Positions 10,438 to 45,873 of a DNA stretch of 46,722 bases are shown here, in pieces (the stretch's first letter is position 1; every line of letters starts with the position of its first letter). The notes below the pieces were generated by a model. That model did not search any database, had not been told where the DNA came from, and saw nothing but the letters and a program-made list of their open reading frames with translations. Position numbers and translations under genes: made by a program. This stretch comes from Candidatus Levybacteria bacterium RIFCSPLOWO2_02_FULL_37_18 (lineage in GTDB: Bacteria; Patescibacteriota; Microgenomatia; Levybacterales; UBA12049), in NCBI GenBank assembly GCA_001784115.1, contig MFPD01000023.1, forward strand, positions 1 through 46,722, read 5' to 3'.

Positions 10438-11993
10438 AAGATCGATTAAAGATTGCTAAAGTTACAACCTTCGATGCTCAGAGCATTTTTTCATTTCATT
10501 ATGAATTTTCCTCCATTTGTAAAAAATATTATTTTGACTTCGTACTCCTGGGTATTATCATTTTTATTTCACTGACTACCTGGTATTCTCTAACAGAAGG
10601 GATTTTAGGGGGTGATAGTTTCTTATACTTGCTATACAGCTATAAAACAGCGTTTTGGAAACAACCATTTGCGATTGGTAGCTTTGAAGCATCTGCTGTT
10701 ACATATGGAAATCTATTCTCTCGACTTTTTGGAGTTACCTTCCCACTTTATTTTTGGGCAGAGCTCATAGTAATGAATATAATTAATATATTATTTTATG
10801 TATTTGTTTTTATTTTGACAAAAAAAAGACTTGTTGCATTTACTGCAACATTATTTCTTGCGGTAAATTATTTTGGAAATTGGGACATGTATTCAAATCA
10901 TTCCTACACATTTTTTCTTGAACGAATAATTAATGCTCCGTGGATGATTTTAAGTTTAATGTTTCTTCATCTTTATCTTACTCAGAATAAGATAAAGTAT
11001 TTTAGTACATCTGTCATATTTTATACCCTAGGAGTTGGGCTTGGGCATTTTAGTATTTTATTTTCACCTACATTTATTTTTTACCCCATTACTTATAAAT
11101 TTTTTAAATCTCAAAAAAATAAATACTCCAAAAGCAATGAAATATGGATAGTAATTATTTATCTATTTACAGGTGCGTCAATCATGTTTTTACAACAACT
11201 TTCTCTGCCCGGGTTTGGTCCTAAGTGGAGTTTTATAGATTTCATGATGCATCCTAATAAGTATCAGCATATTGATAAAATTGTTGCCCAATTAGTTAAC
11301 TGGTCACAGTACCCTATGATTTTAAAGTCTCTAGATAATAATGCAATGAATGGCATTATTAATGTTGGGACAAGAGATACTATATCTCTCTATGTTGTTG
11401 TGATCTATTTTCTTGCCGGCATCCTAATATATAAAAAATTGCAATCCTATAGAGCAATTCTTTTTACGTGCGCTTTTTCTGTAACTGCAATTTTCTATCT
11501 TAATTCTTATTTTAATCAATACGCTATGCTTTACTATACAGGCTCCAGCAGATATCTTTATTATCCAACATTTATTCTTGTACTTTTCTGGGTTCTATTT
11601 TTATGGGCTGCTTTTTTCGATGCAAAGAATGTTTTAGTAAAGCTAGTGGGAATAGGTATAGTTGGTATGTATGTATTAGTTAACATTTCTTTAATACGAG
11701 GAAATTTTGAATGGGTAAACGTATGGAATATTCCAACTAAAAAGATGCATTCTTATATTGTTGATATAAGAGACAGCCTAAAAGAAAATACGCTTGTGGT
11801 AGGGGAATCCCCTTTGATTGGTCATCAAGAGGCGGTATTTTTTACCGAACAACTGGGTAGAGGACAGATTGTATATAGTACAACGAGTAAAAATTATGAC
11901 GATTGGGAAAAACTTGCCTCATCGGCATCGCATCTCATTTTTCTTGTATATAATAATACATGTAAATGTATCATAGAAACAGCAAACAAATAA
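10434..11993 (+). CDS. Polytopic membrane protein, triplicated family copy 1 (possible GT-C fold)
   Basis: Many TM segments; shares FLER, GLGHF, GFGPKWSF, SQYP, YFNQY, SSRYLYYPTF, FFTEQLGRG and CKC tail with the next two ORFs. Confidence 0.7.
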   Translation: MKDRLKIAKVTTFDAQSIFSFHYEFSSICKKYYFDFVLLGIIIFISLTTWYSLTEGILGGDSFLYLLYSYKTAFWKQPFAIGSFEASAVTYGNLFSRLFGVTFPLYFWAELIVMNIINILFYVFVFILTKKRLVAFTATLFLAVNYFGNWDMYSNHSYTFFLERIINAPWMILSLMFLHLYLTQNKIKYFSTSVIFYTLGVGLGHFSILFSPTFIFYPITYKFFKSQKNKYSKSNEIWIVIIYLFTGASIMFLQQLSLPGFGPKWSFIDFMMHPNKYQHIDKIVAQLVNWSQYPMILKSLDNNAMNGIINVGTRDTISLYVVVIYFLAGILIYKKLQSYRAILFTCAFSVTAIFYLNSYFNQYAMLYYTGSSRYLYYPTFILVLFWVLFLWAAFFDAKNVLVKLVGIGIVGMYVLVNISLIRGNFEWVNVWNIPTKKMHSYIVDIRDSLKENTLVVGESPLIGHQEAVFFTEQLGRGQIVYSTTSKNYDDWEKLASSASHLIFLVYNNTCKCIIETANK

Positions 11994-13486
11994 TAGGGAG
12001 AAAGCTTTTTAAAAAAATTAAAAAAGATCTTGGACTGATTTTAATAATCAACATACTAGCGTATTTTGCCTGGAGATTTTTACCTACGGTAACAATTCGA
12101 CATGACGGTTTTGTATACATGCTAAACAATTCTCATACATGGTTTTTTAGCATGCCGCTCTTTTTTACCGGATATGAGAATTCGGCAATGATGGTAGGTT
12201 TCCTCCTTCCAAAATTATTCGGCGTCAATTTACCTTTGTATTACTGGACCGTACTTGTGTTTATGTTGACAATCGACGTACTGCTTTATGTTGTCATTAA
12301 GCTTGTGACCAAGAGAAGTATTGTAGCGTTTGCCGCATCGCTCATTTTTGCGGTGCATTATTTTGGGAATTGGGATATGGTGACAACTCATTGCTATTGT
12401 TTTTTTCTTGAAAGAATAATTCCGACTGTTTTGCTTGTTCCAAGCTTTCTGTTTCTCCATCTCTTTTTGGAAAAAATGAAGAAGAAATTTTTTATACTAT
12501 CATCCCTCTTTTATTTCCTAGGCGTTGGTATTGGTCATTTTACTGTACTCTTTACCCCACTCTTTTTGTTTTATCCAATTTTTTGGTGCCTGTTTAAAGA
12601 GAAGAAAATCAAAAGAAAAATCGTTGGGATCGCGATTGGTTTATCATTTCTCTTCCAGAGTACTTTTTTTGTCGCAATTCAGCAGATTAATGAGAGTGGT
12701 TTAGGACCTCAAAAATGGACGTTTACAGAATTTCTTTTTCATCCAGAAAAATATCTCTATTTTAAAAAAATAGCTCTTCAGTTTGTTTATTGGTCTCAAT
12801 ACCCTGTACTTTTAAAAAATTATGCTGGTGATTCACTGCAAGCAATCATTGAAACAAAAACTGCGGAGTCACTCATTCCTCACTTTCTGATTGCCTACGC
12901 AGTTGCCGCACTCATCATTTACAAACGTCTTCCAAAGCAAAGACCCATGCTTTTCACTACTCTTTTGGGTACAACTGTCATTTTTTATCTCAATGCTTAT
13001 TTTAATCAATACGATATGCTTTATTTTTCAGGAGCTAGCAGGTATTTGTATTTTCCGACATTTTTACTTGCAATATTTTGGTCATATTTTATCTGGGCAA
13101 TTTTTTGGCGGAAGAAAAATATTTTTGCGATAGTTGGTATCTTTCTTTTAGTCGGATATTATATTATCAATTTTTTGTTAATCGATGCAGCATTTATTCG
13201 ACTTTCGGGTTTGAATAGGTCAACTCGTGCAGTTTTTGATCACATTATTAAAACTCGGGATCAGCTTTCAAAAAATACGTTAGTAATTGCTCCCTATCCT
13301 GAATTTTGGGTACAAGAATCGCAGTTCTTTACCGAACGACTGGGAAAAGGGGAAGTGCGGTATATATCGGAGCAAAATCATAATGATATCGATACGTGGG
13401 AGAAGGCAGCATCTTCCTCTTCTCAGGTGATAAAGTTGATGTATAGCAGAGATTGCGGCTGTATAAAAGAAGAAAGGCTAAAATAA
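11966..13486 (+). CDS. Polytopic membrane protein, triplicated family copy 2
   Basis: Paralog of flanking ORFs; C-terminal CGCIKEE. Confidence 0.7.
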   Translation: MYHRNSKQIIGRKLFKKIKKDLGLILIINILAYFAWRFLPTVTIRHDGFVYMLNNSHTWFFSMPLFFTGYENSAMMVGFLLPKLFGVNLPLYYWTVLVFMLTIDVLLYVVIKLVTKRSIVAFAASLIFAVHYFGNWDMVTTHCYCFFLERIIPTVLLVPSFLFLHLFLEKMKKKFFILSSLFYFLGVGIGHFTVLFTPLFLFYPIFWCLFKEKKIKRKIVGIAIGLSFLFQSTFFVAIQQINESGLGPQKWTFTEFLFHPEKYLYFKKIALQFVYWSQYPVLLKNYAGDSLQAIIETKTAESLIPHFLIAYAVAALIIYKRLPKQRPMLFTTLLGTTVIFYLNAYFNQYDMLYFSGASRYLYFPTFLLAIFWSYFIWAIFWRKKNIFAIVGIFLLVGYYIINFLLIDAAFIRLSGLNRSTRAVFDHIIKTRDQLSKNTLVIAPYPEFWVQESQFFTERLGKGEVRYISEQNHNDIDTWEKAASSSSQVIKLMYSRDCGCIKEERLK

Positions 13487-15003
13487 TGAAAAAAAAGCAT
13501 GGCATTGGTTATAAAATAGATCTAGGACTGATTTCAATAATCAACATACTAGCGTATTTTGCGTGGAGTTTTCTACCTACAGTAACAATTAGAAGCGACG
13601 GTTTTGTCTATATGTTGTCACAAACATATAAAGGATTCGTTCAACGCTCCTTCTTTTATACTAGTTATCAAAATTCAGGAATGTTGTTTGGTTTTCTATT
13701 TTCAAAATTATTTGGTGTAAAAATGGAGCTTTATTTTTGGGCGGAACTAGTTGTAATGCTGCTAATAAATGTTCTGTTTTACCTGTTAGTTAAAGTGGTA
13801 ACAAAAAACAGAATTATTGCGTTTTCGGCATCTCTTATGTTTGCGACGAGTTATTTTGGATTATGGGATATGTTTACAAATCATTGCTATTGTTTTTTCC
13901 TTGAACGTCCAATTGTTGCGATATTACTGCTGCCAAGTTTTATGTTTTTACATGTATTTTTACAACATTCAAAAAGAAAATATTATGCTTTTTCTTTAAT
14001 TCTGTATTTTTTGGCGATTGGGCTTGCACATTTTGCTATTCTTTTTACCGGCCCTTATTTAACGTACCCATTCTTTTACAGGATTTTTGAAGTGGGTAAA
14101 ACAAAAAGAAGCATTATGAGTGGGTTACTATATGGATTATCGTACTTATTAATCAGCGGTCTGTTTGTTTTGCTTCAGCAGGTAAATGAGTCAGGCTTTG
14201 GTCCGCATAAGTGGACCTTTTTAGAATTTTTAACACATCCTGGGTTATATAAGTATCCTGAAAAAATGACCTTAGAACTAGTTTACTGGACACAATATCC
14301 AACATTTCTAAAAGATATTGCCACAAATCCCCTACAAAATCTGCTTGATATTAAATCTGCTTACATATATGCTCCGTACATACTAGCTTTATATACAATC
14401 TGCAGCGTTATAATCTTTAAAACCTTACCTAAATTTAGAGCTTTATTGTTTTCTGTTATTTTTGGTATTGCAGGAAACTTTTATTTAAACGCGTATTTTA
14501 ATCAATGGGATATTTTATCACAGCCGGACTCGAGCAGATATCTTTTTTACCCATCGTTTTTACTCGTTATTTTTTGGTCTTTGTTTTTTTGGTCAATATT
14601 TTGGTCAAGAAGGAAAGCATTTTATCACGCAGGATTTTTCCTACTGGGTTTTTATGTTTGGATAAATATTTGGTTAATAAACGCACATGTTACATGGATT
14701 ACAAAGTGGGATAAATCAACAAAAGCAATTCAAGAATACCTCATTAAGAATAGAGATAGTCTTAGGAAAAATACACTGGTAATAGGACCTTATCCTGAAA
14801 TAGGCATACAGGAATCAATTTTCTTTACCGAACAGCTTGGGAGGGGAAAAGTTCGTTATATGAGTGAAAATACGAATTATGATAACTGGAAAGATGTTGC
14901 CCCTTCCTTTTCTCATATAATTAGATTACATTATGATGAAAAATGTGGTTGTGTTGCCGAAGAAAAAATTAGACAGAGTGCGATCTCTACTAGTCGATTT
15001 TAA
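13486..15003 (+). CDS. Polytopic membrane protein, triplicated family copy 3 (start revised from 13453)
   Basis: TAATG overlap: stop of copy 2 at 13484-13486 and ATG at 13486 in frame; C-terminal CGCVAEE. Confidence 0.7.
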   Translation: MKKKHGIGYKIDLGLISIINILAYFAWSFLPTVTIRSDGFVYMLSQTYKGFVQRSFFYTSYQNSGMLFGFLFSKLFGVKMELYFWAELVVMLLINVLFYLLVKVVTKNRIIAFSASLMFATSYFGLWDMFTNHCYCFFLERPIVAILLLPSFMFLHVFLQHSKRKYYAFSLILYFLAIGLAHFAILFTGPYLTYPFFYRIFEVGKTKRSIMSGLLYGLSYLLISGLFVLLQQVNESGFGPHKWTFLEFLTHPGLYKYPEKMTLELVYWTQYPTFLKDIATNPLQNLLDIKSAYIYAPYILALYTICSVIIFKTLPKFRALLFSVIFGIAGNFYLNAYFNQWDILSQPDSSRYLFYPSFLLVIFWSLFFWSIFWSRRKAFYHAGFFLLGFYVWINIWLINAHVTWITKWDKSTKAIQEYLIKNRDSLRKNTLVIGPYPEIGIQESIFFTEQLGRGKVRYMSENTNYDNWKDVAPSFSHIIRLHYDEKCGCVAEEKIRQSAISTSRF

Positions 15004-29784: not shown

Positions 29785-29799
29785 TACAATAAATTTATG
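29785..29799 (+). promoter_or_regulatory. -10 box with leaderless spacing
   Basis: TACAAT (29785-29790)-N6-ATG 29797; no well-placed -35 (TTGACA at 29754-29759 is 25 bp away). Confidence 0.4.
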
Positions 29800-30420
29800 A
29801 CTAAAGTTAGCAGGAAGTATCAGGATCGCGTCCGAAAACGCTTATTGGAAAGTGCTGATGTTAAAAAAAAAGTAGCGCAAGATTGTCTGGAATCAATTTT
29901 AGCCGCAACACAGCTGATAGTTGATACATTTGAATCCGGTGGTAAGGTAATGATTTGCGGAAATGGCGGTAGTGCAGCCGACTCTCAACATATGGCTGGC
30001 GAACTGATTTGCGTTTTAAACAAAGCGTTTGATAGACCCGGTCTTCCTGCCATTGCTTTAACTACCGATACCTCTATTTTAACAGCGTCAGCCAATGACA
30101 TGGGTTTTGAAAATGTCTACAAACGTCAGGTTCTCACGTTAGGCAGGCCCGGTGATCTTTTGATTGCTATTTCAACCAGCGGTAATTCTCCAAATATACT
30201 TGCCGCGGCCCAAGCAGCCAGGGAAGCTTTGATACATACAATAGCCCTAACCGGCAAGGAGGGTAAACTACAAAAAATAGCCGATATAGCAGTATGTGTC
30301 CCGAGTAACATGACTCAATGCATTCAAGAATCCCATATAGCCATAGAACATATAATCTGTGAGTTGGTAGAACATCATTTCTTTGGTTCAAAAATAGGTA
30401 AAAATAAGGCATGGTTATAA
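29797..30420 (+). CDS. gmhA: Sedoheptulose-7-phosphate isomerase (phosphoheptose isomerase)
   Basis: KVMICGNGGSAADSQHMAGELICVL, ALTTDTSILTASANDMGFENVYKRQV, ISTSGNSPNIL. Confidence 0.85.
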   Translation: MTKVSRKYQDRVRKRLLESADVKKKVAQDCLESILAATQLIVDTFESGGKVMICGNGGSAADSQHMAGELICVLNKAFDRPGLPAIALTTDTSILTASANDMGFENVYKRQVLTLGRPGDLLIAISTSGNSPNILAAAQAAREALIHTIALTGKEGKLQKIADIAVCVPSNMTQCIQESHIAIEHIICELVEHHFFGSKIGKNKAWL

Positions 30421-31412
30421 GCAGAACTCCCTTTCGAATTTCTTTTTTTGGCGGAGGAACAGACTATCCTACCTGGTATAAAAAATATGGCGGTTCTGTT
30501 TTGGCTACTGCTATAAATAAATATTGCTATCTCTCAGTAAGATACTTACCACCATTCTTTGAACATAAATATAGTATTGTTTATTCCAAGATTGAAAGCT
30601 GTGATGAAATCGATGAGATCGTCCATCCTTCCGTGCGGACGGTTCTACAATATCTCAAGATAAATCAAGGTTTGAAAATTCACCATGACGGTGACTTGCC
30701 TGCCCGAAGTGGATTAGGCTCCAGCTCAGCCTTTACTGTTGGGCTTTTAAATGCTTTATATGCACTTGGAGGTAAAATGATCAATAAAAAGCAATTAGCC
30801 AAAGAGAGTACTTATATTGAGCAAGAGGTTTTAAAAGAGACAGTTGGATCACAAGATCAAGTGTTAGCATCGTATGGAGGATTTAACCTGATTACTTTTC
30901 ATACAGATGGGGAAATAACACTAAAACCCATGACCATCTCTTCCAAACGTGTTGAAGATCTGCAAAAGCATTTAATGCTTTTCTATACAGGAATAGCGCG
31001 GACAGCCTCTGACATTGCTAAGAGTTATGTCAATAATATGAAAAGTAGGCAAAAACAGCTGGATCGTTTGCAGGAGCTGGTATCAGATGCTTTTGAGCTT
31101 CTTAATAGCAGAAAAGATATAAAAGATTTCGGCAAACTTTTAAACGAATCTTGGCAAATCAAACGAACACTTAGTTCTACAGTCTCTAATCCCAAAATAG
31201 ATGAACTTTACAAAAGAGCTTTATCAACAGGAGCTTTAGGAGGAAAGCTAACCGGTGCAGGTGGCGGGGGTTTTCTACTTCTTTTTGTTCCACCTTCCCA
31301 TCAAGCTAAAGTAAGAAAAGAATTCAAAAAACTTATTTATGTTCCTTTCAAATTTGAGCGTGAAGGATCTCAAATAATTTTTTTTGATCAGCAGGAGAAT
31401 TATTCTTTTTAA
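30411..31412 (+). CDS. hddA: GHMP kinase, D-glycero-D-manno-heptose 7-phosphate kinase-like
   Basis: ISRTPFRISFFGGGTDYPTWY, DLPARSGLGSSSAFTVGLL, GGKLTGAGGGGFLLLF. Confidence 0.75.
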   Translation: MVISRTPFRISFFGGGTDYPTWYKKYGGSVLATAINKYCYLSVRYLPPFFEHKYSIVYSKIESCDEIDEIVHPSVRTVLQYLKINQGLKIHHDGDLPARSGLGSSSAFTVGLLNALYALGGKMINKKQLAKESTYIEQEVLKETVGSQDQVLASYGGFNLITFHTDGEITLKPMTISSKRVEDLQKHLMLFYTGIARTASDIAKSYVNNMKSRQKQLDRLQELVSDAFELLNSRKDIKDFGKLLNESWQIKRTLSSTVSNPKIDELYKRALSTGALGGKLTGAGGGGFLLLFVPPSHQAKVRKEFKKLIYVPFKFEREGSQIIFFDQQENYSF

Positions 31413-34532: not shown

Positions 34533-35243
34533 TTACATCTGATATTGAGCAAAGAATTGCTCAGCTTGTTCGTAATTCTCAGGCGTTCCTATGTCTATGA
34601 AATTGTTATTATCCCTATATCCATAAAATCCTTTACCAATCCAAATAGGGAATACCTCATGTTCTAAGGATAGTTTTTTTTCTTGAAGCAGTTGTTCAAT
34701 TAGCTTTTTTTTAATTAAATAAATTCCTGCATTAATCAATCCTGTTCCAGCTTTTTTTTCTTGAAATCCAATAATACCATTATCACTTCCAAGTTCAACT
34801 TTTCCAAAACTACTTGTGTCTAAAACCGAAGCAAGAACTATGCTTGCATTGGAATATTCTTCTCTATGAAACTTATAAAATTTTTCAAAATCCACAACGC
34901 AGAAAGAATCTCCATTCATAACTAATATTGTTTCGGAATTTAAGAGCGGGAGAGCATTTCTCAGGCTACCTGCTGTGCCTAAAGGTTTTTGTTCTTGTGA
35001 GTAAAATAGACGAAGATTTTTATACTTCTTCCCGAATGTTTTCTCAATCTGATCACTTAAGTATCCTGTACAAAGAACGATGTTTTTAAAATTAGCTTGA
35101 TTTAGTTGGTGTAGTAAATATTCTAAAAAAGGATGATCTTTAACTTCTGCTAAAACCTTAGGCTTTTGGTCTACCACTGATCGAAGTCTGGTTCCATGTC
35201 CTCCTGCTAAAATTGCTACAGTAATTTCTGAAAGATTAGTCAT
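34533..35243 (-). CDS. hddC: Sugar nucleotidyltransferase, HddC-like (start probably MTNLSEITVAIL, annotated ORF starts 35273)
   Basis: VAILAGGHGTRLRSVVDQKPKVLAEV, LVMNGDSFCVVD; heptose-pathway context. Confidence 0.65.
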   Translation of the reverse strand: MTNLSEITVAILAGGHGTRLRSVVDQKPKVLAEVKDHPFLEYLLHQLNQANFKNIVLCTGYLSDQIEKTFGKKYKNLRLFYSQEQKPLGTAGSLRNALPLLNSETILVMNGDSFCVVDFEKFYKFHREEYSNASIVLASVLDTSSFGKVELGSDNGIIGFQEKKAGTGLINAGIYLIKKKLIEQLLQEKKLSLEHEVFPIWIGKGFYGYRDNNNFIDIGTPENYEQAEQFFAQYQM

Positions 35244-36207
35244 TTCTATATATTGATGTTTTATACCAATCAACTGTTTTTTTTATTCCTATTTCAATGG
35301 AAGTTTTAGGCGAAAAACCTAAAATATTCCTGGCCTTGTCAATATTAATCAATCTGATGGGGATCATTGTTGGTTTTAAACTGTTAAAAACAATTTTTGG
35401 GTTTTTATAATTTTCTACCCTTAGAATTGTTTGTAGAACATACCGAATAGCAGTTGGTTTTCCAGAAGCTATGTTAACTGGATCAAAAGTATTTATTTTT
35501 TCCATTGCCAGTAATAATCCATCCACTAAATCCTCAGCATATATAAAATCTTTGATATCATTTCCATCTCCCCATACTTCTAGTGGTGTTTGTTTTTCTA
35601 TGACTTTTTTAATAAGAGCAGGAATTACATGGGAGCTTTCTAAATCAAAGTGATCATACGGGCCATAAATATTGCCTGGTCTTACTACAATTGTCGTCAT
35701 AGGATTTTTAATTTTAGTTGAGTACATTTCACACATTTTTTCAGTAAAAAGCTTCATCCATCCAACAGGGAAATATTTCTCATAGAGAGTGTAATTTACG
35801 TCATCTTCATCAACTGCATAATCGGTTAAAGGATAAACAGTATTGCTGGAGATAAATAGAAATTTTTTGACATTTGCTTTATGAGCTGCCTCAAGCATTA
35901 AAGAGTTCATGATTACATTCGGGGTTACATGAGCTAGGGGAGTTTTTTCGATTACCGCTGCTCCCGATGTATTGGCAGCGCACATAAATACATGGTCAAT
36001 TCCCCTAACTACTCTTTTACAATCAGCTGGTTTAGTCAAGTCGGCTTTTACAAATTCAACTTTTAAATCTTTAATTTGAGAAGGTTTTTTATGAATGGTT
36101 GCTCGAACTGTTGCTCCTTTTTCAAGCAATTTTAATAGTAAGTTAGTACCTATAAAGCCAGCACCTCCAGTTACCAATACTTTTTTACTTTCGAAAAATT
36201 GATTCAT
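35236..36207 (-). CDS. GDP-L-fucose synthase-like SDR lacking the catalytic Tyr (start revised from 36264)
   Basis: VLVTGGAGFIGTNLLLKL, RPGNIYGPYDHFDLESSHVIPALI; PVGWMK in place of YxxxK; TAATG overlap with upstream gene. Confidence 0.77.
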   Translation of the reverse strand: MNQFFESKKVLVTGGAGFIGTNLLLKLLEKGATVRATIHKKPSQIKDLKVEFVKADLTKPADCKRVVRGIDHVFMCAANTSGAAVIEKTPLAHVTPNVIMNSLMLEAAHKANVKKFLFISSNTVYPLTDYAVDEDDVNYTLYEKYFPVGWMKLFTEKMCEMYSTKIKNPMTTIVVRPGNIYGPYDHFDLESSHVIPALIKKVIEKQTPLEVWGDGNDIKDFIYAEDLVDGLLLAMEKINTFDPVNIASGKPTAIRYVLQTILRVENYKNPKIVFNSLKPTMIPIRLINIDKARNILGFSPKTSIEIGIKKTVDWYKTSIYRND

Positions 36208-36761
36208 TACACTCTTTTGCCTAGTTTGTCTCTTGGTGAAAGTATCGGATTTTTTACTGGCCATCTAATTTTAAACTTGGGATCGTCCCATTTAATCGTA
36301 AATTGGCTCTCTGGATGATAGTATGAAGATTGTTTGTAATGGTATATATCATATTCAGACAAGACTAGATGTCCATTGCCATACATTGGTGGAATTAAAA
36401 CTTGAAATCTATTTTTGTCAGATAAAGTAAATGCTTCCCATTTACCGTAATCTTTAGATTTTGGGTTGTTATTTAATGCAACTAGATAAAATTTCCCAAA
36501 TAAACACTGGACCAGTTTCCAGGTTTTTGCATCCCCATGTATTCCTTTTAAAACCCCCCGTCTACCAGTTGAGATATCGTCTTCAACAAAATGTAAATTT
36601 GAAGCTTCTTTTTGATACATAGTTCCTCTTAAATTCTTTGCAATTTCTTGCATGTACTTTTTTTCATTAAATATCTCAACATACTCTCCCCGAAAATCTT
36701 CAAAAGGCTCGGGCGAAATTCGTAAAACACCTTCTAATGTTGTTTTAGAGATTTTAATCAT
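36207..36761 (-). CDS. dTDP-4-dehydrorhamnose 3,5-epimerase-like (RmlC family)
   Basis: FEDFRGEYVEIFNEKKY, GVLKGIHGDAKTWKLVQCLFGKFYLVALN, PPMYGNGHLVLSE. Confidence 0.8.
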   Translation of the reverse strand: MIKISKTTLEGVLRISPEPFEDFRGEYVEIFNEKKYMQEIAKNLRGTMYQKEASNLHFVEDDISTGRRGVLKGIHGDAKTWKLVQCLFGKFYLVALNNNPKSKDYGKWEAFTLSDKNRFQVLIPPMYGNGHLVLSEYDIYHYKQSSYYHPESQFTIKWDDPKFKIRWPVKNPILSPRDKLGKRV

Positions 36762-36764
36762 TTT

Positions 36765-37526
36765 TTATTCAACTACAAAATATGACGTGCGGGAAGTGAA
36801 CCTATGTCTTTTAAGATGAATATTATTCAACCCAAAAACCTCATCTAAAGCCATGGTTTCTCCTGGAGAATCAGGATCATTGAGTTCATCAAAACACAAA
36901 ATACTCCCCTTTACTAAATGCGGCTTAATGGTTTGCAGACATTTTTTTGTAGGTTTATAAATATCAAAATCAAAAAAAGCCAAAGCCACAATTGTTTCCG
37001 GGTGTTCTTTGAAATATGTAATAATTTCTAAATTAGCGTCGCCTTTTATTAGTTCATATTTTTTAATATGCGAAAGCGGATTTTCTTGTTCATGATACTC
37101 CATAATTTCTGCTAAATATTCGTAGTAATCTTTAGTTAAGATTAAGTTGCCTTTTTGCATCATCTCTGACTTTCCATCTTCAAGGCTTACTTCCGGAAAA
37201 CCCGTAAAGGTGTCAAATCCGACAATTTTTCTGTGTCTATTAAATGGATCATAAATTCCTCGGAGTGCTGAAAAAAGTGCTACATTCTGTCCCCATCTTG
37301 TACCAAACTCAAAAACAGCTCCGGGGACATCCACAATTAGTTTAAAAATATGATCCATAAAAAGTATACGGGATAAATTTTTAGAATTTATAAAAAGACC
37401 TAAATTAGGCATTAATTGATCATCAGGAATAGGACAATTTTTAAAAAGCTCAACAATTTTTTGCCGGATTTTTGTTTCTTTATCACTTTCGTATGCTTTA
37501 ATTTTAGTTAAATCCTTCTTTGTCAT
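36765..37526 (-). CDS. TylF/MycF-like methyltransferase-family protein
   Basis: VPGAVFEFGTRWGQNVALF, KIVGFDTFTGFPEV, ALAFFDFDIYKPTKKCLQTI. Confidence 0.7.
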   Translation of the reverse strand: MTKKDLTKIKAYESDKETKIRQKIVELFKNCPIPDDQLMPNLGLFINSKNLSRILFMDHIFKLIVDVPGAVFEFGTRWGQNVALFSALRGIYDPFNRHRKIVGFDTFTGFPEVSLEDGKSEMMQKGNLILTKDYYEYLAEIMEYHEQENPLSHIKKYELIKGDANLEIITYFKEHPETIVALAFFDFDIYKPTKKCLQTIKPHLVKGSILCFDELNDPDSPGETMALDEVFGLNNIHLKRHRFTSRTSYFVVE

Positions 37527-37529
37527 TTT

Positions 37530-38636
37530 TTAATCCTCAACTATAGCCGGAATGGGTTTTTTACCATTGAAAGCTATAACCCATGCCCAGTACCGTATTC
37601 TACCATTTATTAATTCATATTCAAAGATTCTATCTTTTTTTTGTACCGTCCTTATCCTAACCGGTTTCAAAAAATCTCCTTTTTGTATATCTTTCGAAAG
37701 CATCGCGGGAGATGGAAAGAAGTTTAGCTTATTACTTAGTGCTTCTTCGACTGTTTTGTAAGCAGCATGGTCAGTAATAGATACAACCCTAATTTTTCCG
37801 GTATCTATGTTTATTACTTTACTAGTAAATGTTTTTGCAAGAAGATCAATATCACTTTTTTCCAGCACAAACTCAGTAGACTTTGCGTTTCCCTCTAAAT
37901 GAATGATGTTAGTTGTTGCAGGTATGGCAACAACAGATGGATGAGAAATTAAAAAGTTTAATATTATTTGGGAGGCAGTCCTATCATATTTTTTAGACAG
38001 ATTTAAAAATATCTTTGAGTATTTTTCTGTTTTTAAAATAGTACCTGAATTTAGGGGCGTATAGGCGATAGTAGTAATTTTATTTTTTTCGCAGTAGGGA
38101 AGTAGATCGTATTCTATTGTCCGCTCAAGCAAATTATATTCTATTTCCAAAGAGACAATTGGTAATGTAGATGCTTTTTGGATATCTTTTAGAAGTCTTT
38201 GAGAGAAATTACAAACACCGATATGTCTTATCTTTCCAGCTTTAATTAATTTTTCTAAAGCTTTTAGTGTTTCTTCAATAGGAACAATGGGATTTGGCCA
38301 ATGGATTTGATAGAGATCGATATAATCAGTTTGTAATCTTTTTAAACTGCCTTCTGCAGTTTTTAAAACATCTTTGTAACTAGAATGTTCGGAAGAGAAC
38401 TTGGTTGCTATGACAACCTTATCTCGCATTCTCTTGAAAGCTTTTCCTACTAGTATTTCAGAGTAGCCATTATGATAAACTTCTGCAGTGTCAAAAAAAT
38501 TTATGCTCTTATCTAAGGCCTTTTGCATAAGATACATTAATTTTTTTTCGTCTTTTTGAATATTAGCAACAAAATTAGTTCCCAAACCGATACTGCTTAT
38601 TTTAATTTTACTTTTACCTAAATTCTTATACTTCAT
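37530..38636 (-). CDS. Aldo/keto reductase with ParB/Srx-like C-terminal domain
   Basis: AKR: FFDTAEVYHNG, VVIATKF, YQIHWPNP. C-term: FLKPVRIRTVQKKDRIFEYELINGRIRYWAWVIAFNGKKPIPAIVED. Confidence 0.78.
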   Translation of the reverse strand: MKYKNLGKSKIKISSIGLGTNFVANIQKDEKKLMYLMQKALDKSINFFDTAEVYHNGYSEILVGKAFKRMRDKVVIATKFSSEHSSYKDVLKTAEGSLKRLQTDYIDLYQIHWPNPIVPIEETLKALEKLIKAGKIRHIGVCNFSQRLLKDIQKASTLPIVSLEIEYNLLERTIEYDLLPYCEKNKITTIAYTPLNSGTILKTEKYSKIFLNLSKKYDRTASQIILNFLISHPSVVAIPATTNIIHLEGNAKSTEFVLEKSDIDLLAKTFTSKVINIDTGKIRVVSITDHAAYKTVEEALSNKLNFFPSPAMLSKDIQKGDFLKPVRIRTVQKKDRIFEYELINGRIRYWAWVIAFNGKKPIPAIVED

Positions 38637-38638
38637 CT

Positions 38639-39766
38639 TTAAAATACAATTGACGGGATTGGTTTTGAAAAATCATATAAGATCCTCCAGGCTAGGTATT
38701 TTTTTAGTTCTCCATAAAAGTCATAGCTATCCAAATAATAATAATCATTCTTTTCTAATAACTTCAGCGGTTTGAAGTAATTATATTTAACAAAAGTTTG
38801 AGCAATTGTTAGGGGAGAAGGAATTAAATTATTTTGATTTTTAAAAATCTCAAAGTTATTAAACTTCTTAAATTGCTGTGGTATTTTAATTTTTTCCATG
38901 GGTATAGTTTGAACTTTATACTGAAACAACTTATAAAATTGTTGACGTTGTTTTGCTGTCAAATTAAAATCAAAAGAGCCTACATTAGTTTTTAAATGTT
39001 CGATGTTATCAGTTCTTGAAAGGAGTATGATACTTTCTAAAGAAGTAAAATATCTAATTAAGATTTGCGATAATGTTTTGTTATATTCCTTCTGTAGGTC
39101 ATCTAAAAATGCTTGCTGTTTTTTAGTGAAATTTAAGTTTAAATGATTTAATACACCATACCCAATAATAGATATTTTATTTTCTTGATAATAATGTAAG
39201 TTTTTCAGAGCTTCATATTGGTTAAAAAGATTAATCTCAATGTGATTGGAAGATATTTTAATTTTTTTTAAGTATTTACTTGTTTGAGCAACCATAGAAA
39301 TGGAAAAGTTGCAAACACCTATAGCTCTAATATATCCTGCTAAAACAAGTTCTTCTAGGATTGTAAAAGTTTCCTCAAGTTCTACGAAAGGATTTATCCA
39401 GTGAATTTGATAGAGATCAATGTAATCAGTTCCTAATCTTTTAATGCTTTCTTTAATGGATCTTTTCAAGCCAAAATGAGTGCAATTGTCCGGGTTTACT
39501 TTACTTGATATTACAATCTGTTCCCTTTTTTTCTTAAATGTCTCTCCTAAAATAAATTCAGCATATCCTTCTCCGTAAAGCTCTGCGGTATCAAATAGAT
39601 TGATACCCCTTTCTAAGGCGAATTGATAGATTTTTTGCCGATTATGAGTTTTATCGGGGTTGTTATTTTGAAAATTGCCTATACCATTTGTTCCAAGCCC
39701 AAGTGTTGAGACTCTAATATTAGAAGAACCTAAATTTTTATAAATCATTCGATCGATATCTCCCAA
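38639..39766 (-). CDS. Aldo/keto reductase with degenerate ParB/Srx-like C-terminal domain
   Basis: LFDTAELYGEG, IVISSKV, YQIHWINP; C-term YFKPLKLLEKNDYYYLDSYDFYGELKKYLAWRILYDFSKPIPSIVF. Confidence 0.75.
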   Translation of the reverse strand: MGDIDRMIYKNLGSSNIRVSTLGLGTNGIGNFQNNNPDKTHNRQKIYQFALERGINLFDTAELYGEGYAEFILGETFKKKREQIVISSKVNPDNCTHFGLKRSIKESIKRLGTDYIDLYQIHWINPFVELEETFTILEELVLAGYIRAIGVCNFSISMVAQTSKYLKKIKISSNHIEINLFNQYEALKNLHYYQENKISIIGYGVLNHLNLNFTKKQQAFLDDLQKEYNKTLSQILIRYFTSLESIILLSRTDNIEHLKTNVGSFDFNLTAKQRQQFYKLFQYKVQTIPMEKIKIPQQFKKFNNFEIFKNQNNLIPSPLTIAQTFVKYNYFKPLKLLEKNDYYYLDSYDFYGELKKYLAWRILYDFSKPIPSIVF

Positions 39767-40176
39767 CCTTTAAAATCATCAGTTTCTACATTTGTCCTTT
39801 TTTTACTTGGTTCAACTTCATCGCTTTGCTCCAGAATTAGATTTTTTATTCTATTTCTAATTCCATTTAATTGATGTGCCATTTTTAGTAAATCATTATA
39901 ATGCTTAGGGTCCTCTTGCATTTTGTCTTTATTATTCCAAATAAATAAATTCATTTGAGCAATAACAATTATCATTCTGATTAACTTGGCAGAAAGCTTT
40001 ATCTGTTTTTGGGAGATTAGCATATCAATATCATAAGAAATTTTTTTAATTTCCAAAGCATAACTTTGTTTGTTATCTAATTTAATTTCTTTAATCTGAT
40101 CAATAGATAACGCATCAATTAAATCAGCAAGAGTCGGCAGATATTTACGATCTGTATTAGTTTTTGTTTTTTTCAT
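39745..40176 (-). CDS. Small helical protein of unknown function
   Basis: 143 aa, starts KYLPTLADLIDALSIDQIKEIKL; packed in the operon with short overlaps on both sides. Confidence 0.6.
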   Translation of the reverse strand: MKKTKTNTDRKYLPTLADLIDALSIDQIKEIKLDNKQSYALEIKKISYDIDMLISQKQIKLSAKLIRMIIVIAQMNLFIWNNKDKMQEDPKHYNDLLKMAHQLNGIRNRIKNLILEQSDEVEPSKKRTNVETDDFKGWEISIE

Positions 40177-41143
40177 ACCAGTCGGATTTGAGATACTGTT
40201 CTACAGTATTTTTAATACCATCCTCAAGAGAGGTCTTTGCGGCAAATCCAAGTAAGTTTTCTGCTCTTTTCATAGAAAGTACTCGAACAGGGTCACCTGT
40301 TGGTTTACTTGTATCCCAACTAAGTTTTGGTTTGGTAGAGATAGTATTGGCAATAGTTTGGGCAATTTTTTTTATCGTTACCCCAATGCCTGCTCCTAGA
40401 TTAATAGGTACACAAGGTGGGGCTAATTCTTGCGCTAGAAGCATTCCTTCCACAACGTCATCTACAAAGATAAAATCGCGAGTTGCATTACCATCTCCCC
40501 AAATCTTTACGGGATTTTCACCACTTACCATCCTGGCAATTAGAGCCGGAATAACTTGAGCTGTTTTGGGGTTAAAATCATCGTGAGGGCCATACACGTT
40601 TGATGGGCGAACTATTTTAGGAGCTTGCCAATTATATTCAAGCAAATAGCTTTCCGCCTGTACTTCGCCAATTCTTTTTGCAAGCCCCGGAATACGGTCA
40701 TTTTGTTTTGGCTGTCCATCCCAGACACTATCTTCAGTTTTCGGTTTATTCGATTGTGGGTAGGCACAAATACTGCTTACAAAAAGAAAACCTTTTACAT
40801 CATTTTTAAATGCCCCGTCCATTACATTAGTCTGAAAACGAAGCATTGGTACTAAAAAGCTTGCTGCTTTTGTATGTCCTATACCGACAGATCCTTTAAT
40901 TCCCACAAGATTAAAAACTAAATCCTGACCTTTGGTTATCTTCAAACAATTATCAAATTCTGTCAGATCGGTTTGGAAAAATTTAACTTTTTTGCCAAAT
41001 AATTTTTCTGCGTACTCTTTTGATTCCAAAGATGCAATGGTTATTTCACAATCATACTGTAAAAGCTTATTTACCATACAAATTCCAATCATTCCCGTAC
41101 CGCCTGCTACCAAAACTTTTTTTCTTTTATAAAATTTGCTCAT
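40157..41143 (-). CDS. GDP-L-fucose synthase-like SDR lacking the catalytic Tyr
   Basis: VLVAGGTGMIGICMV, PSNVYGPHDDFNPKTAQVIPALI, DTSKPTGDPVRVLSM; IPGLAKRIGE in place of YxxxK. Confidence 0.77.
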   Translation of the reverse strand: MSKFYKRKKVLVAGGTGMIGICMVNKLLQYDCEITIASLESKEYAEKLFGKKVKFFQTDLTEFDNCLKITKGQDLVFNLVGIKGSVGIGHTKAASFLVPMLRFQTNVMDGAFKNDVKGFLFVSSICAYPQSNKPKTEDSVWDGQPKQNDRIPGLAKRIGEVQAESYLLEYNWQAPKIVRPSNVYGPHDDFNPKTAQVIPALIARMVSGENPVKIWGDGNATRDFIFVDDVVEGMLLAQELAPPCVPINLGAGIGVTIKKIAQTIANTISTKPKLSWDTSKPTGDPVRVLSMKRAENLLGFAAKTSLEDGIKNTVEQYLKSDWYEKNKN

Positions 41144-41144
41144 T

Positions 41145-42092
41145 TTAAATTGGTTTCCAAACTATATAAGAGTAACCATCGTGATAAAAAGAACCAAACG
41201 TTCTTCTTATATCAAGAATTTTAATTTTCTTTTTTGCCTGAAGACTTTTTAAATAAGGCAGAAAACCTCTTAAGTAATTTCTCTTATCCAAATATTTTAC
41301 TGCCAAATAATCTAATAAATTATCCTGATTGTAAATTTCGTAAAGTGTCTCCACATTTATACAAGCCTTAGGTTTCTTCTTTAGAAGATAGTTTATAAAA
41401 GGTTTAAAATTTTCTCCCAGTTGTTCAAGAGTACCAATAGTTAAAACACCAGAATCTTTATCAAGCCGATATTTTTCATCTGGATTAAAAAGATCAAAAA
41501 ACTTTGCAGAAATATTTATATTAAGTTTTTCTTTTAAGGTATTAATAATATTTATAGATGATTTTGCCCAATCCAGGCCAACCAATTTCATATTAGGGAA
41601 AATTTCTGATGCTGCTACTAAATTTAACCCTGTTCCTGCGCCAAATTCATACAAAGTATTTATTCCTTTGTAATATTTATTGAAAAGATAATATCTCATC
41701 ACAATTACAAAGTCTGTTTCAAATGAATTGCTTTGAGGATCGATAAAATTATCTTGGAATCTTATGTATTCTCCCTCTTTTACAAATTTAGGAATGAGTT
41801 GATTTAAATCATAACCACTTCGTTTAAATTCCGTTAAATTCTCTTCCCAACCTTTTTCCCAATCATTCAGCCTGTGGGGTCCGGAAGTTTTTAAGTTTTT
41901 TGAATCTAAGGTTTTAATTATCCGCAAAATTGCCCTATCGTATTCTTTGCCTTCGACGATTTGATATTTAGAATTTGCTTTTGATATTACTTGTTTAGCA
42001 AGGGATGGGAAATCATTTTCTTTTGCATTAAAAATTTTAGCAAAAAATTTATAATCTAAATTATATGTATTACATGCTTTTTTCGTATTCAT
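41145..42092 (-). CDS. SAM-dependent methyltransferase-like protein (putative sugar methyltransferase)
   Basis: TLYEFGAGTGLNLVAASEIFPNMKLVGLDWAKSS, GVLTIGTLEQLG. Confidence 0.65.
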   Translation of the reverse strand: MNTKKACNTYNLDYKFFAKIFNAKENDFPSLAKQVISKANSKYQIVEGKEYDRAILRIIKTLDSKNLKTSGPHRLNDWEKGWEENLTEFKRSGYDLNQLIPKFVKEGEYIRFQDNFIDPQSNSFETDFVIVMRYYLFNKYYKGINTLYEFGAGTGLNLVAASEIFPNMKLVGLDWAKSSINIINTLKEKLNINISAKFFDLFNPDEKYRLDKDSGVLTIGTLEQLGENFKPFINYLLKKKPKACINVETLYEIYNQDNLLDYLAVKYLDKRNYLRGFLPYLKSLQAKKKIKILDIRRTFGSFYHDGYSYIVWKPI

Positions 42093-43057
42093 CGGCTTTT
42101 AAGAAATCTGTCAATTTTTCTAATAACGTGATTTGATGCTATGCCAATATGTTTATGCATGTAGTTTCTATCTCCATAAATAAAGCAGTGTCCATCTGGC
42201 AGCCCAATCCTTAGGAAATCTATCTTAATAGAGTGATCTACTAAGAAATCTGCAACTATTGTTCCTAAACCTCCATACGAAAGATGCTCTTCGAGCGTAA
42301 ATACAACTTCAAATGGTTTAATAAGTTTTTTTAAAAGCTTTTCGTTTAGGGGTTTAAGTTGATAAATATCGATTACCGCCATATCTAAACCTCTTTTATC
42401 TTTTAAATAGTTTGCAATGTCAATAGCTTTATGAGTTATTGTACCTGTTGTGATCAAGCAAGACTTTTTACCAGGTTTGAGCATTACTAAACCATCTGGA
42501 ATACTATCCATTCTTGATGAGTAAAGATCTGGGAAATTGCCCTTTTCAAAACGAATATAAGTCAACTGAGGCTTAGAATAAGCAAAGTGAGGAAATACTG
42601 CAAGATTGAAAAAATCTGTAGCGTTTAAGATTCTCATATGAGGTATGGCTCTCATAATTGCTATGTCTTGGTTGCTATGATGAGTTGGCCCATCAGCTCC
42701 ATAAGTAAAACCCGGACCAATTCCTGCTATAATTACAGGCAGATTCATAATACTTAAGTCGACTTTAATTTGTTCGTAGCAACGAAGTGTTAAAAAGGTA
42801 GAGATTGCGTGCACAAAAACTTTTTTTCCTGAAAGTGCCAATCCTGCTGCGACACTAATCATGTTTTGTTCTGCAACTCCAACATTAATTATTTGTTTAG
42901 GTAAACTTGAGTAAAATTTTTGAAAAGCGTAGGCTCCTTGATCAGCATGGAGAAGAATTACATCGTGGTCATGTGAGGCTATTTGGAAAAGCTCTTCAAA
43001 AAAGGCATCTCTCATCTCTGTATAAGCAGTATGTGGTTTTAAAAATTTTTTCATCAA
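42089..43057 (-). CDS. Transketolase C-terminal subunit (split transketolase)
   Basis: VILLHADQGAYAFQKF, NVGVAEQNMISVAAGLALSGKKVFVHAI, FTYGADGPTHHSNQDIAIMRAIP. Confidence 0.85.
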   Translation of the reverse strand: MMKKFLKPHTAYTEMRDAFFEELFQIASHDHDVILLHADQGAYAFQKFYSSLPKQIINVGVAEQNMISVAAGLALSGKKVFVHAISTFLTLRCYEQIKVDLSIMNLPVIIAGIGPGFTYGADGPTHHSNQDIAIMRAIPHMRILNATDFFNLAVFPHFAYSKPQLTYIRFEKGNFPDLYSSRMDSIPDGLVMLKPGKKSCLITTGTITHKAIDIANYLKDKRGLDMAVIDIYQLKPLNEKLLKKLIKPFEVVFTLEEHLSYGGLGTIVADFLVDHSIKIDFLRIGLPDGHCFIYGDRNYMHKHIGIASNHVIRKIDRFLKSR

Positions 43058-43872
43058 ACTAACCCTAAGTCCTTTTTAGCTAATTGTATTTGTTCTCCTT
43101 TGGGCACTCCATGGTGCCAATGATAATCATTTTCCATAAAAGAAATCCCTTTACCTTTTACGGTATCAGCGACAATAACAGAGGGTTTGGAATTCTTCAT
43201 TTGCTTAAGTTTTTTAAGCGAATTTATTATTTGTTTGAAATTATGTCCATCTATTTGAATCGTATTCCAGCCAAATGATTTCCATTTCGAAGCCAACGAG
43301 AAATTACCTGTAAAGTTCCTTGTAAAAGCGGTAGCAGCAACTTTATTATTGTCAACAATAGCTATTAAATTAGATAATTTTTGTTGTGTAGCAAATGATG
43401 CTCCTTCCCAGATAGATCCCTCATTGCATTCACCATCCCCCAATATTACTAAAGTCGAAAAACTTTTTTTATCTAACTTTGCAGATAGGGCAAGTCCACA
43501 ACCAATTCCAAGTCCATGTCCTAAAGAACCAGATGAGACCTCAACGCCTGGGATAAAATGATCAGGGTGGCCCCCTAAGATTGTTCCATTTTGTCCATGT
43601 TTGTCTAACTGCTCTTTTGGAAAGTAGCCTTTATCAGCTAGTACACAATAAAGCGCCAGACATGCATGGCCTTTACTGAAGATAATTCTGTCTCTTTCAG
43701 GATCCCCCTTTTTTTTAGGAGATAGATTAAATATTCCGGAGCAATAGATAGCAACCAGTATATCTGTTATCGAGAGCGCACCACCTAAGTGACCTTTTCC
43801 AGCACTAATTTGCATTTGAAAGGATTTTTGTCTTACCCAGTTAGCCTTTTGTTTTAAAGTATTAATATCCAT
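43054..43872 (-). CDS. Transketolase N-terminal (TPP-binding) subunit
   Basis: GKGHLGGALSITDILVAIY, GDGECNEGSIWEGASFATQQKLSNLIAIVDNN TPP motif. Confidence 0.87.
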   Translation of the reverse strand: MDINTLKQKANWVRQKSFQMQISAGKGHLGGALSITDILVAIYCSGIFNLSPKKKGDPERDRIIFSKGHACLALYCVLADKGYFPKEQLDKHGQNGTILGGHPDHFIPGVEVSSGSLGHGLGIGCGLALSAKLDKKSFSTLVILGDGECNEGSIWEGASFATQQKLSNLIAIVDNNKVAATAFTRNFTGNFSLASKWKSFGWNTIQIDGHNFKQIINSLKKLKQMKNSKPSVIVADTVKGKGISFMENDYHWHHGVPKGEQIQLAKKDLGLV

Positions 43873-44915
43873 TAGAAAGGTCCTCGGAATTTGTTTTCAT
43901 AACTATAAAAAGTTTCTTGCGATAAATCCATTTTGGCAAGTTTTAGTTTTTGTTCAACAGCTCTTATAAGTTTAATGGCATCTGTATAGAACTCATTTTC
44001 TAGTGGTCTGCAACTGGGACAATGCGTGTGAGCGAATCCGAGTCGCGTAATTTGGGATTTTAATTTATGAGATAACTTATCATAAATTCTGGTGGCAAGT
44101 TCCGCAGAAAAACCACAAAAAATCCAATCATAATCTGCAATAATTAAGTTACGTGTTTTCTCAACAGATTTTATTATCAACTCTTCATCTAAAGGAAATA
44201 TAGAGCGCGGGTCAACTACTTCAACGCTTATTCCTTGTTTTTCTAGAACTTCGCTAGCTTTTATTGCCTCAACAGCAGAATATGAAGTGGCAACAATAGT
44301 AATGTCTTTTCCTGTTTTAAGAATTTGTCCTTTGCCAATTGTAGTGGGGATAGGTTCAATAGGTACCTCATCTTCAACATCATAAAGCATCCGATGTTCT
44401 AAAACCACAACTGGATTATTATCTCGTATTGCAGATATCAATAGTCCCTTCGCATCAGCTGGCGTTGTTGGCATAACTACTTTTAGGCCTGGGATGTGAG
44501 CAAAAAATGATTGCAAGCTCTTACTGTGTTGGTATGACTGGCCCCAGCCTTTACCGATAATTGCCCGGATAACTAAAGGTACTTGTAATTTTCCATCCGA
44601 ACCGTAGCGATAACTTGCAACCATATTTACAAGTTGGTTAATAGCTAAAAGCAGAAAATCAACTCTCATATGGACATTAATTGGTCGCAGTCCACAAATT
44701 GCTGCTCCTAAACCAAAGCCCAATAGTGCTTCCTCAGAGAGAGGAGTAGAAAAAACACGCTTTGGACCAAACTTTTCCATAAGGCCTGCTGTTGAACCAA
44801 ATATTCTCTTATGATCTGCCACATCAATTCCATAGATAAAAATTGAGTTATCCCGCTCCATTTCCTGATGAAGGGCTTGGTTAATGGCATCCCGGTAAGA
44901 AACTTTTTTATTCAT
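43872..44915 (-). CDS. 2-oxoacid dehydrogenase-like E1 beta subunit
   Basis: MNKKVSYRDAINQALHQEMERDNSIFIYGIDVA, LSEEALLGFGLGAAICGLRPI, DITIVATSYSAVEAI. Confidence 0.83.
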   Translation of the reverse strand: MNKKVSYRDAINQALHQEMERDNSIFIYGIDVADHKRIFGSTAGLMEKFGPKRVFSTPLSEEALLGFGLGAAICGLRPINVHMRVDFLLLAINQLVNMVASYRYGSDGKLQVPLVIRAIIGKGWGQSYQHSKSLQSFFAHIPGLKVVMPTTPADAKGLLISAIRDNNPVVVLEHRMLYDVEDEVPIEPIPTTIGKGQILKTGKDITIVATSYSAVEAIKASEVLEKQGISVEVVDPRSIFPLDEELIIKSVEKTRNLIIADYDWIFCGFSAELATRIYDKLSHKLKSQITRLGFAHTHCPSCRPLENEFYTDAIKLIRAVEQKLKLAKMDLSQETFYSYENKFRGPF

Positions 44916-45873
44916 AAAATGTGTTTTTCAACAGTTCATAAGAATCAGGAAATGGGGCATCGATAGCCTTTTGAAAACTCTCATTTACTTGTTTGTCGAT
45001 ACGCTTCTCAAGTTTTAGAATCTCTATATCGCTCACCTTTATTCTTTTTAATTTACCTCTAAGTAACTTAACCGGGTCCTTTTTTTGCCAGCCTATAAAC
45101 TCTTTTTTATTTCTATAGCCTGCATTAAAATCTTCATGTACACCGACATGTTCTAAATAACGATAGTATTTTAGATGCAAAAATGCAGGCATATGGTCCT
45201 TTTTGATTGAATTAATTGCTTGCAAAGTTAGGTTATAAATTTGCTCTGCATCTGTAGTTTCTTTCTCAAAAACAGAAATATAATATTGTTTAATTATATT
45301 AACCAAATTTTTGTACCCGCGTCTTAATATAGGAGGATTATGGACTGCAAAACCATTATCTTCACAAACAAAAAGTACCGGAAGGCGCTTTAGGCAGGCA
45401 ATGTTTAGACTTTCCCAAAAAACACCCTCATCAACTGCCCCATCGCCAAAAAATACTGTCACTATCTGCTTCTTTTTAAGATAAACACCGGCAAACGCTG
45501 CGCCGACTGCCAAGGGTATAGTACTGCCAACAACCGCAGAAATTCCCAGTAACCCATCATTTGGTGATAAAAGGTGCATGGAGCCCCCTTTTCCTTTTAA
45601 AACACCAGTAACCTTGCCAAGCATTTCGGCAAAAAATTTGTCAGTTTCTTCTGTTGCTGCTAAGTACAAACCATGACTTCTATAAGTGCCAAAAGTAAGA
45701 CTATTTTGACCTAAGGCAGTATATACACCAGAGACTATAGCTTCTTCTCCCATCGACATATGCATCGGTGTTTTCATCTCGTTATTGTCATAATGTTTAA
45801 TGATTAACTCCTCAGCAGTCCTGATTAAATAAACTTTTTTATAAAGATTTAAAATCAATTTTTTTCTATTCAT
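44908..45873 (-). CDS. 2-oxoacid dehydrogenase-like E1 alpha subunit (TPP-dependent)
   Basis: LIRTAEELIIKHY, HMSMGEEAIVSGV, GKGGSMHL, FFGDGAVDEGVFWESLNIACLKRLPVLFVCEDN. Confidence 0.87.
   Translation of the reverse strand: MNRKKLILNLYKKVYLIRTAEELIIKHYDNNEMKTPMHMSMGEEAIVSGVYTALGQNSLTFGTYRSHGLYLAATEETDKFFAEMLGKVTGVLKGKGGSMHLLSPNDGLLGISAVVGSTIPLAVGAAFAGVYLKKKQIVTVFFGDGAVDEGVFWESLNIACLKRLPVLFVCEDNGFAVHNPPILRRGYKNLVNIIKQYYISVFEKETTDAEQIYNLTLQAINSIKKDHMPAFLHLKYYRYLEHVGVHEDFNAGYRNKKEFIGWQKKDPVKLLRGKLKRIKVSDIEILKLEKRIDKQVNESFQKAIDAPFPDSYELLKNTFYE

Follow-up and report, generated by a model that had tools for sequence, protein, structure and literature searches.

An E1-like pair and a split transketolase in a nucleotide-sugar operon of a Levybacteria genome: probable carboligases for two-carbon branches on surface sugars

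Enzymes that add two-carbon (C2) branches to sugars, or are proposed to do so, are already known. The E1-like carboligases termed alphaKADH2 (AviB1/AviB2, Pau11/Pau12 and KbDH-alpha/beta) add such branches to antibiotic sugars, a reaction that KbDH performs in vitro with pyruvate; in paulomycose the C2 branch is then reduced by Pau7, an aldo/keto reductase (AKR) (PMC4753412). YerE branches CDP-3,6-dideoxy-4-keto-glucose, the product of an RfbH-type 3-dehydratase, to give yersiniose, and 13 candidate branching transketolases have been listed, all from Streptomycetes and none assayed in vitro, E1-type and transketolase-type branching being described mainly in specialised natural products (PMC12247030). 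Here we analyse a 46,722-nucleotide stretch (the window: contig MFPD01000023.1 of Candidatus Levybacteria bacterium RIFCSPLOWO2_02_FULL_37_18), in which an E1-alpha/beta pair and a two-gene transketolase lie side by side in a nucleotide-sugar operon. These two enzymes are probably carboligases that add C2 units to nucleoside diphosphate (NDP)-keto sugars, and thereby provide a surface glycan with one or two branched nucleotide sugars.

As originally predicted, the open reading frames for E1-alpha, E1-beta and the N- and C-terminal transketolase chains (TK-N and TK-C) are all intact. They are the second to fifth of 14 minus-strand genes that form an operon (46722-34533). Adjacent genes of this operon overlap or lie ≤3 nt apart, and it meets the contig end (46722, also the end of the window) inside gene 1. 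All four have Pfam matches above the curated cut-offs, the motifs for thiamine diphosphate (ThDP) are complete (GDG...EDN in E1-alpha, GDG...VDNN in TK-N), each pyrimidine-domain chain retains its catalytic Glu, and E1 retains its active-site His positions. The predicted absence of partner subunits also held: family searches of the whole genome found no 2-oxoacid dehydrogenase E2, no biotin/lipoyl domain and no E3 dimerisation domain, searches that were positive in 10, 14 and 14 of 14 control genomes, respectively. Of the features of AviB1/AviB2-type enzymes, the E1-alpha/beta chains with an intact ThDP motif, the lack of E2 and E3 and the NDP-sugar gene setting are present, and there are AKR genes like that of the paulomycin pathway; a pyruvate donor and a C2 branch are presumed. 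Unlike the alphaKADH2 systems, the E1 pair is found in a surface-glycan setting, in small-genome Patescibacteria and other non-actinobacterial hosts, and in company with a split transketolase.

Phylogenetically, the pair groups with E1s that lack an E2 and is set apart from pyruvate dehydrogenase (PDH) and acetoin dehydrogenase. When E2-linked references were included, a branch of the E1-beta tree, supported at 100/99 with or without the C-terminal tail, had the E2-less sequences on one side; the corresponding branch for E1-alpha was supported at 92/91. This split is not taxonomic, since Patescibacteria E1s that adjoin an E2 (L053, L055, L056) are placed with PDH. The E2-less group includes a Streptomyces pair (L018) that is uncharacterised. 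Relatives of the pair occur in Microgenomates, Bacteroidota, Omnitrophota and Acidobacteriota, and in metagenome-assembled genomes (MAGs) that bear the title Deltaproteobacteria and are placed in Myxococcota; Solidesulfovibrio and Azospirillum carry theirs on plasmids. None of these relatives has an adjacent E2 gene, in contrast to the pyruvate and acetoin dehydrogenase control operons. Residues H82, R84, W124 and R175 are invariant in the 17 E2-less betas compared and missing from E2-linked ones. Most E2-less betas also end in F-x-G-P-F, which is varied in L018 (FAGPY) and L050 (FTGSF) and absent from Solidesulfovibrio and two divergent Patescibacteria pairs (L054, L057). The PDH E1-alpha model gives the window protein a score of 245, against a cut-off of 394.

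The gene neighbourhoods of these relatives point in the same direction. A contig scan with the window E1-beta, which returned mainly close relatives, placed the closest operon relatives in Microgenomates and 'Levyibacteriota' MAGs, and almost the entire operon is common to L005 and L012. Remoter loci, in several phyla, retain the E1 pair, short-chain dehydrogenases/reductases (SDRs), an HddA-like kinase and often a GMD-like dehydratase, a recurring sugar context. In eight loci a DegT-fold protein accompanies the E1 pair, and in all eight the lysine that binds pyridoxal phosphate is replaced by His; the two DegT proteins of the window, encoded outside the operon, keep it. For the five His-type proteins compared (four beside E1 genes, one in L050), the best NCBIfam match is RfbH, below cut-off. 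RfbH- and ColD-type proteins remove the 3-hydroxyl from NDP-4-keto sugars, and YerE acts right after RfbH, which places the E1 pair where a branching enzyme would be expected. The proposed reaction is that of YerE and its relatives (yersiniose, erwiniose), that is, branching of an NDP-4-keto sugar after an RfbH-type 3-dehydratase, for a surface polysaccharide. However, YerE, a member of the decarboxylase superfamily, consists of one chain and differs in domain make-up from the enzymes here, a two-chain E1 and a two-chain transketolase. A radical S-adenosylmethionine (SAM) protein of ~500 aa also recurs in these E1/transketolase sugar clusters (L010:4481-5989, L011:10177, L014:10381, L016:10925-12430, L097:4246-5736), with a B12-binding domain in L010 and L097; it is absent from the window operon.

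In yeast and E. coli transketolase structures, R358, S385, H461 and R520 (numbered on an E. coli TktA sequence that is 100% identical to E. coli records) contact the substrate phosphate, and the split transketolase differs from housekeeping enzymes at the last three of these residues. In TK-C, S385 is replaced by Tyr, H461 by Gly and R520 by Lys. Relatives in sugar clusters share the Gly and an Ile at F434; S385 and R520 are often altered in them too, although some keep Ser or Arg. Housekeeping-type copies of the phylum retain His and Ser and, in most cases, Arg, and the two types are separated at 99/95 in a tree. Catabolic split transketolases on Agrobacterium and Monoglobus plasmids are distinct again, with Ser at 461 and R520 kept. 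The best solved match of both window chains, the Carboxydothermus hydrogenoformans enzyme (6yaj/6yak), is split in the same way but keeps the His at the H461 position. The genome also encodes a full-length transketolase of 628 aa on contig 13, with Ser, His and Arg at S385, H461 and R520, which answers the question of whether there is another complete copy and rules out the split enzyme as the sole housekeeping transketolase. Besides this protein, E1-beta and TK-C, the only other Transket_pyr protein is a member of a second split, shortened transketolase adjoining an SDR on contig 17 (L060:8562-9937), whose C chain (158 aa) lacks the C-terminal domain and has Gly at the H461 position.

Transketolases of this glycan type recur where a branching enzyme might be sought. 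They lie near a His-type DegT gene in four Patescibacteria loci. A Methylovirgula plasmid carries rfbF-rfbG-SDR-rfbH-TKn-TKc, in which the pair occupies the place expected of a YerE-type enzyme and the RfbH motif has His. In Paenibacillus the order is rfbF-rfbG-methyltransferase-(SDR fused to TKn)-TKc-TylF; the fusion of an SDR with the transketolase N chain is encoded at L107:4097-6004, on a Paenibacillus cellulosilyticus plasmid. In Azospirillum B510 a kinase gene stands beside TKn-TKc-SDR-AKR-TylF, gene types shared with the window. The strongest argument that both enzymes do the same kind of job is their exchangeability in L097 (nucleotidyltransferase, HddA-like kinase, B12-type radical SAM protein, SDR, RfbH, transketolase pair), which has the layout of an E1 locus with a transketolase in the E1 slot. 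The original prediction had the transketolase supplying or consuming C2 units; a second branching enzyme is likelier than a supplier, because the phosphate-binding residues are altered and relatives directly follow rfbH. The split branching transketolases proposed for miharamycin and amipurimycin, compared by description, are likewise two-gene enzymes in keto-sugar clusters and are thought to transfer hydroxyacetyl, but they come from Streptomycetes only and are unproven in vitro, whereas those seen here belong to surface-glycan loci of Patescibacteria, Alphaproteobacteria and Paenibacillus.

The two enzymes are encoded in one operon not only in the window but also in L005, L012 and L006; in genome G001, ~14 kb separates them. 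Among 380 Patescibacteria genomes, three have both an E2-less E1 and a glycan-type transketolase, and four and seven have only one (Fisher p about 4e-4, a rough value, as the genomes are related to one another and classification covered top-ranked loci only). Between L005 and the window, the transketolase chains are 62-64% identical and the E1 chains 82-88%; the L005 transketolase pair (L005:7992-9763) has thus diverged far more than the E1 pair beside it, which may reflect an exchange of the transketolase pair.

The pathway that we infer, including donors, acceptors, nucleotide, product and order of steps, would run as follows: (i) a kinase, a nucleotidyltransferase and the GMD-like 4,6-dehydratase would make an NDP-6-deoxy-4-keto sugar, (ii) the RmlC-like epimerase and SDRs would adjust it, (iii) E1-alpha/beta would decarboxylate pyruvate on ThDP and, because it has no lipoyl partner, pass the C2 unit on, so that the keto carbon would come to bear an acetyl branch, (iv) the split transketolase, as a second carboligase, would probably transfer hydroxyacetyl, taken from hydroxypyruvate or a ketose, to this or a different NDP-keto sugar and (v) AKRs or SDRs would reduce the branch ketones and methyltransferases complete the sugar. 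The C2 branching by an E1-like pair without E2 and E3 that was originally predicted survives the tests run. We hold only tentatively to a more specific proposal, that the two unrelated ThDP carboligases install one acetyl and one hydroxyacetyl branch, giving an undescribed surface sugar, and that glycan-type split transketolases are a widespread family no longer using sugar-phosphate acceptors.

Several points weigh against C2 branching by both enzymes. The function of both clades is predicted from sequence and gene context, the likeness to the AviB1/AviB2, Pau and KbDH enzymes is one of gene make-up and description rather than of sequence, and support in the E1-alpha tree is moderate. There is no RfbH-type gene in the window operon, whose sugar therefore probably keeps its 3-hydroxyl, and in two loci the DegT protein near a glycan-type transketolase is of the Lys type. 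R358 is retained in the window transketolase and transketolase donor sugars are normally phosphorylated too, so that the altered phosphate contacts settle neither the donor nor the acceptor.

It is also conceivable, albeit unlikely, that only the E1 pair branches sugars, the split transketolase being there solely to provide sedoheptulose-7-phosphate for the neighbouring GmhA/HddA/HddC-like route. GmhA enzymes use this compound, and GmhA-, HddA- and HddC-like genes lie in the window; however, a canonical transketolase is already present, the split one is altered in its phosphate-binding residues, and its relatives come after rfbF-rfbG-rfbH in loci that make no heptose. Moreover, the GmhA, HddA and HddC homologues all score below their family cut-offs and a search for GmhB found none, which leaves the GDP-D,D-heptose pathway (GmhA-HddA-GmhB-HddC) short of four members above cut-off and makes a GDP nucleotide and a heptose sugar possible but guesses. 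Quite unlikely is the notion that both ThDP enzymes act before nucleotide activation, on free or phosphorylated aldoses, giving deoxyketoses or chain-extended sugars. DXS and transketolase do perform such aldehyde chemistry, and TK-C scores about as well with DXS as with transketolase models, but the repeated association with RfbH-type and 4,6-dehydratase genes, which act on NDP sugars, and the altered phosphate-binding residues speak against it, and the chain-extended sugar entertained by the original prediction found no specific support. It is highly improbable that the pair serves as E1 in an ordinary 2-oxoacid dehydrogenase whose E2 and E3 genes fell into an assembly gap, since, even in a draft genome (1.11 Mb, 31 contigs, 96.5% complete), the pair groups apart from all E2-linked E1s, scores far below the PDH cut-off and has the same E2-less context in many genomes. 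Within the limits of such a draft, missing E2/E3 and phylogeny rule out an ordinary pyruvate or acetoin dehydrogenase, and the split transketolase is not the sole copy in the genome; neither finding that would have refuted the original prediction was made.

The other genes of the operon, listed in Table 1 with two of a neighbouring divergent cluster, form the nucleotide-sugar set of the original prediction, with the exception of its Fcl-like SDRs, which are generic extended SDRs. The C-terminal extension of the second AKR (37530-37760) weakly resembles ParB_N (E 0.0065, below cut-off). Elsewhere in the window (10434-15003), three tandem genes encode membrane proteins of ~500 aa each, mutually 41-50% identical.

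Table 1. Genes of the operon and of the neighbouring cluster, with the matches on which each assignment is based
Feature	Coordinates	Strand	Evidence
GMD-like NDP-sugar 4,6-dehydratase, 5' end cut by contig end	45870..46722	-	PF16363 244 bits; best NCBIfam match TIGR01472 gmd, 160 vs cut-off 415
E1-alpha-like subunit, 321 aa, ThDP-binding half of proposed acetyl-transferring carboligase	44908..45873	-	PF00676 (E1_dh) 161 bits; ThDP motif intact; E2-less tree side 92/91
E1-beta-like subunit, 347 aa, F-x-G-P-F C-terminal tail	43872..44915	-	PF02779 (Transket_pyr) 121 bits, PF02780 (Transketolase_C) 102 bits; E2-less tree side 100/99; H82, R84, W124, R175
Split transketolase N-terminal (ThDP-binding) chain TK-N, 272 aa	43054..43872	-	PF00456 (Transketolase_N) 133 bits; best solved match, N chain of split transketolase 6yak
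Split transketolase C-terminal chain TK-C, glycan type, 322 aa, TTG start	42089..43057	-	Transket_pyr 98, Transketolase_C 62 bits; Gly at TktA H461, Tyr at S385, Lys at R520; clade 99/95
Probable SAM-dependent methyltransferase	41145..42092	-	Weak Methyltransf_31/25 matches, below cut-off; conserved in L005 and L012
Extended SDR (epimerase/dehydratase family)	40157..41143	-	PF01370 146 bits
Small protein, 143 aa, no family	39745..40176	-	No Pfam match; same place in L005 and L012, 64-70% identical
AKR 1, candidate branch-ketone reductase	38639..39766	-	PF00248 181 bits; DTAE-Y and IHW motifs present
AKR 2, candidate branch-ketone reductase	37530..38636	-	PF00248 225 bits; motifs present
Putative TylF-like O-methyltransferase	36765..37526	-	Weak Methyltransf_24 match; 35-36% identical to proteins annotated as TylF/MycF/NovP-related beside glycan-type transketolases L105, L107
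RmlC-like 3,5-epimerase	36207..36761	-	PF00908 137 bits; TIGR01221 130 vs cut-off 156
Extended SDR	35236..36264	-	PF01370 169 bits
Sugar-1-phosphate nucleotidyltransferase, HddC/ManC-like	34533..35273	-	PF00483; NF052502 156, HddC NF049965 150, both below cut-off
HddA-like GHMP sugar kinase, neighbouring divergent cluster	30411..31412	+	NF049969 172 vs cut-off 600; homologues beside E1 pairs in L008-L011, L014, L016, L017
GmhA-like SIS isomerase, neighbouring divergent cluster	29797..30420	+	TIGR00441 186 vs cut-off 209

A scan of viral contigs returned no relative. A viral origin was rejected, the phage-collection matches inspected being either short records that lack annotation or an acetoin operon of host type in a phage-labelled record; the latter (L065, CAKLQH020000018.1, 'Acinetobacter phage MD-2021a') holds a whole host-type acetoin dehydrogenase operon. 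Matches to the transketolase C chain in the same collection include fourteen Campylobacter phage records.

In conclusion, C2-branched sugars are known from antibiotics, where the enzymes are of the E1 type, and from O-antigens, where they are YerE, and here both E1 and transketolase types are found in surface-glycan clusters, including that of a very small genome. As far as the literature was searched (which yielded no relevant paper on E1 or transketolase genes in O-antigen clusters, subscription papers being mostly outside its scope), the occurrence of both types in surface-glycan loci across phyla, their joint operon and their sequence signatures are new. These signatures, the FxGPF tail and Gly at TktA 461, offer a means of searching for such enzymes, and the sequenced loci in named strains (Methylovirgula sp. 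HY1, Solidesulfovibrio magneticus RS-1 and Azospirillum sp. B510) lend themselves to asking whether transketolases accept keto sugars.

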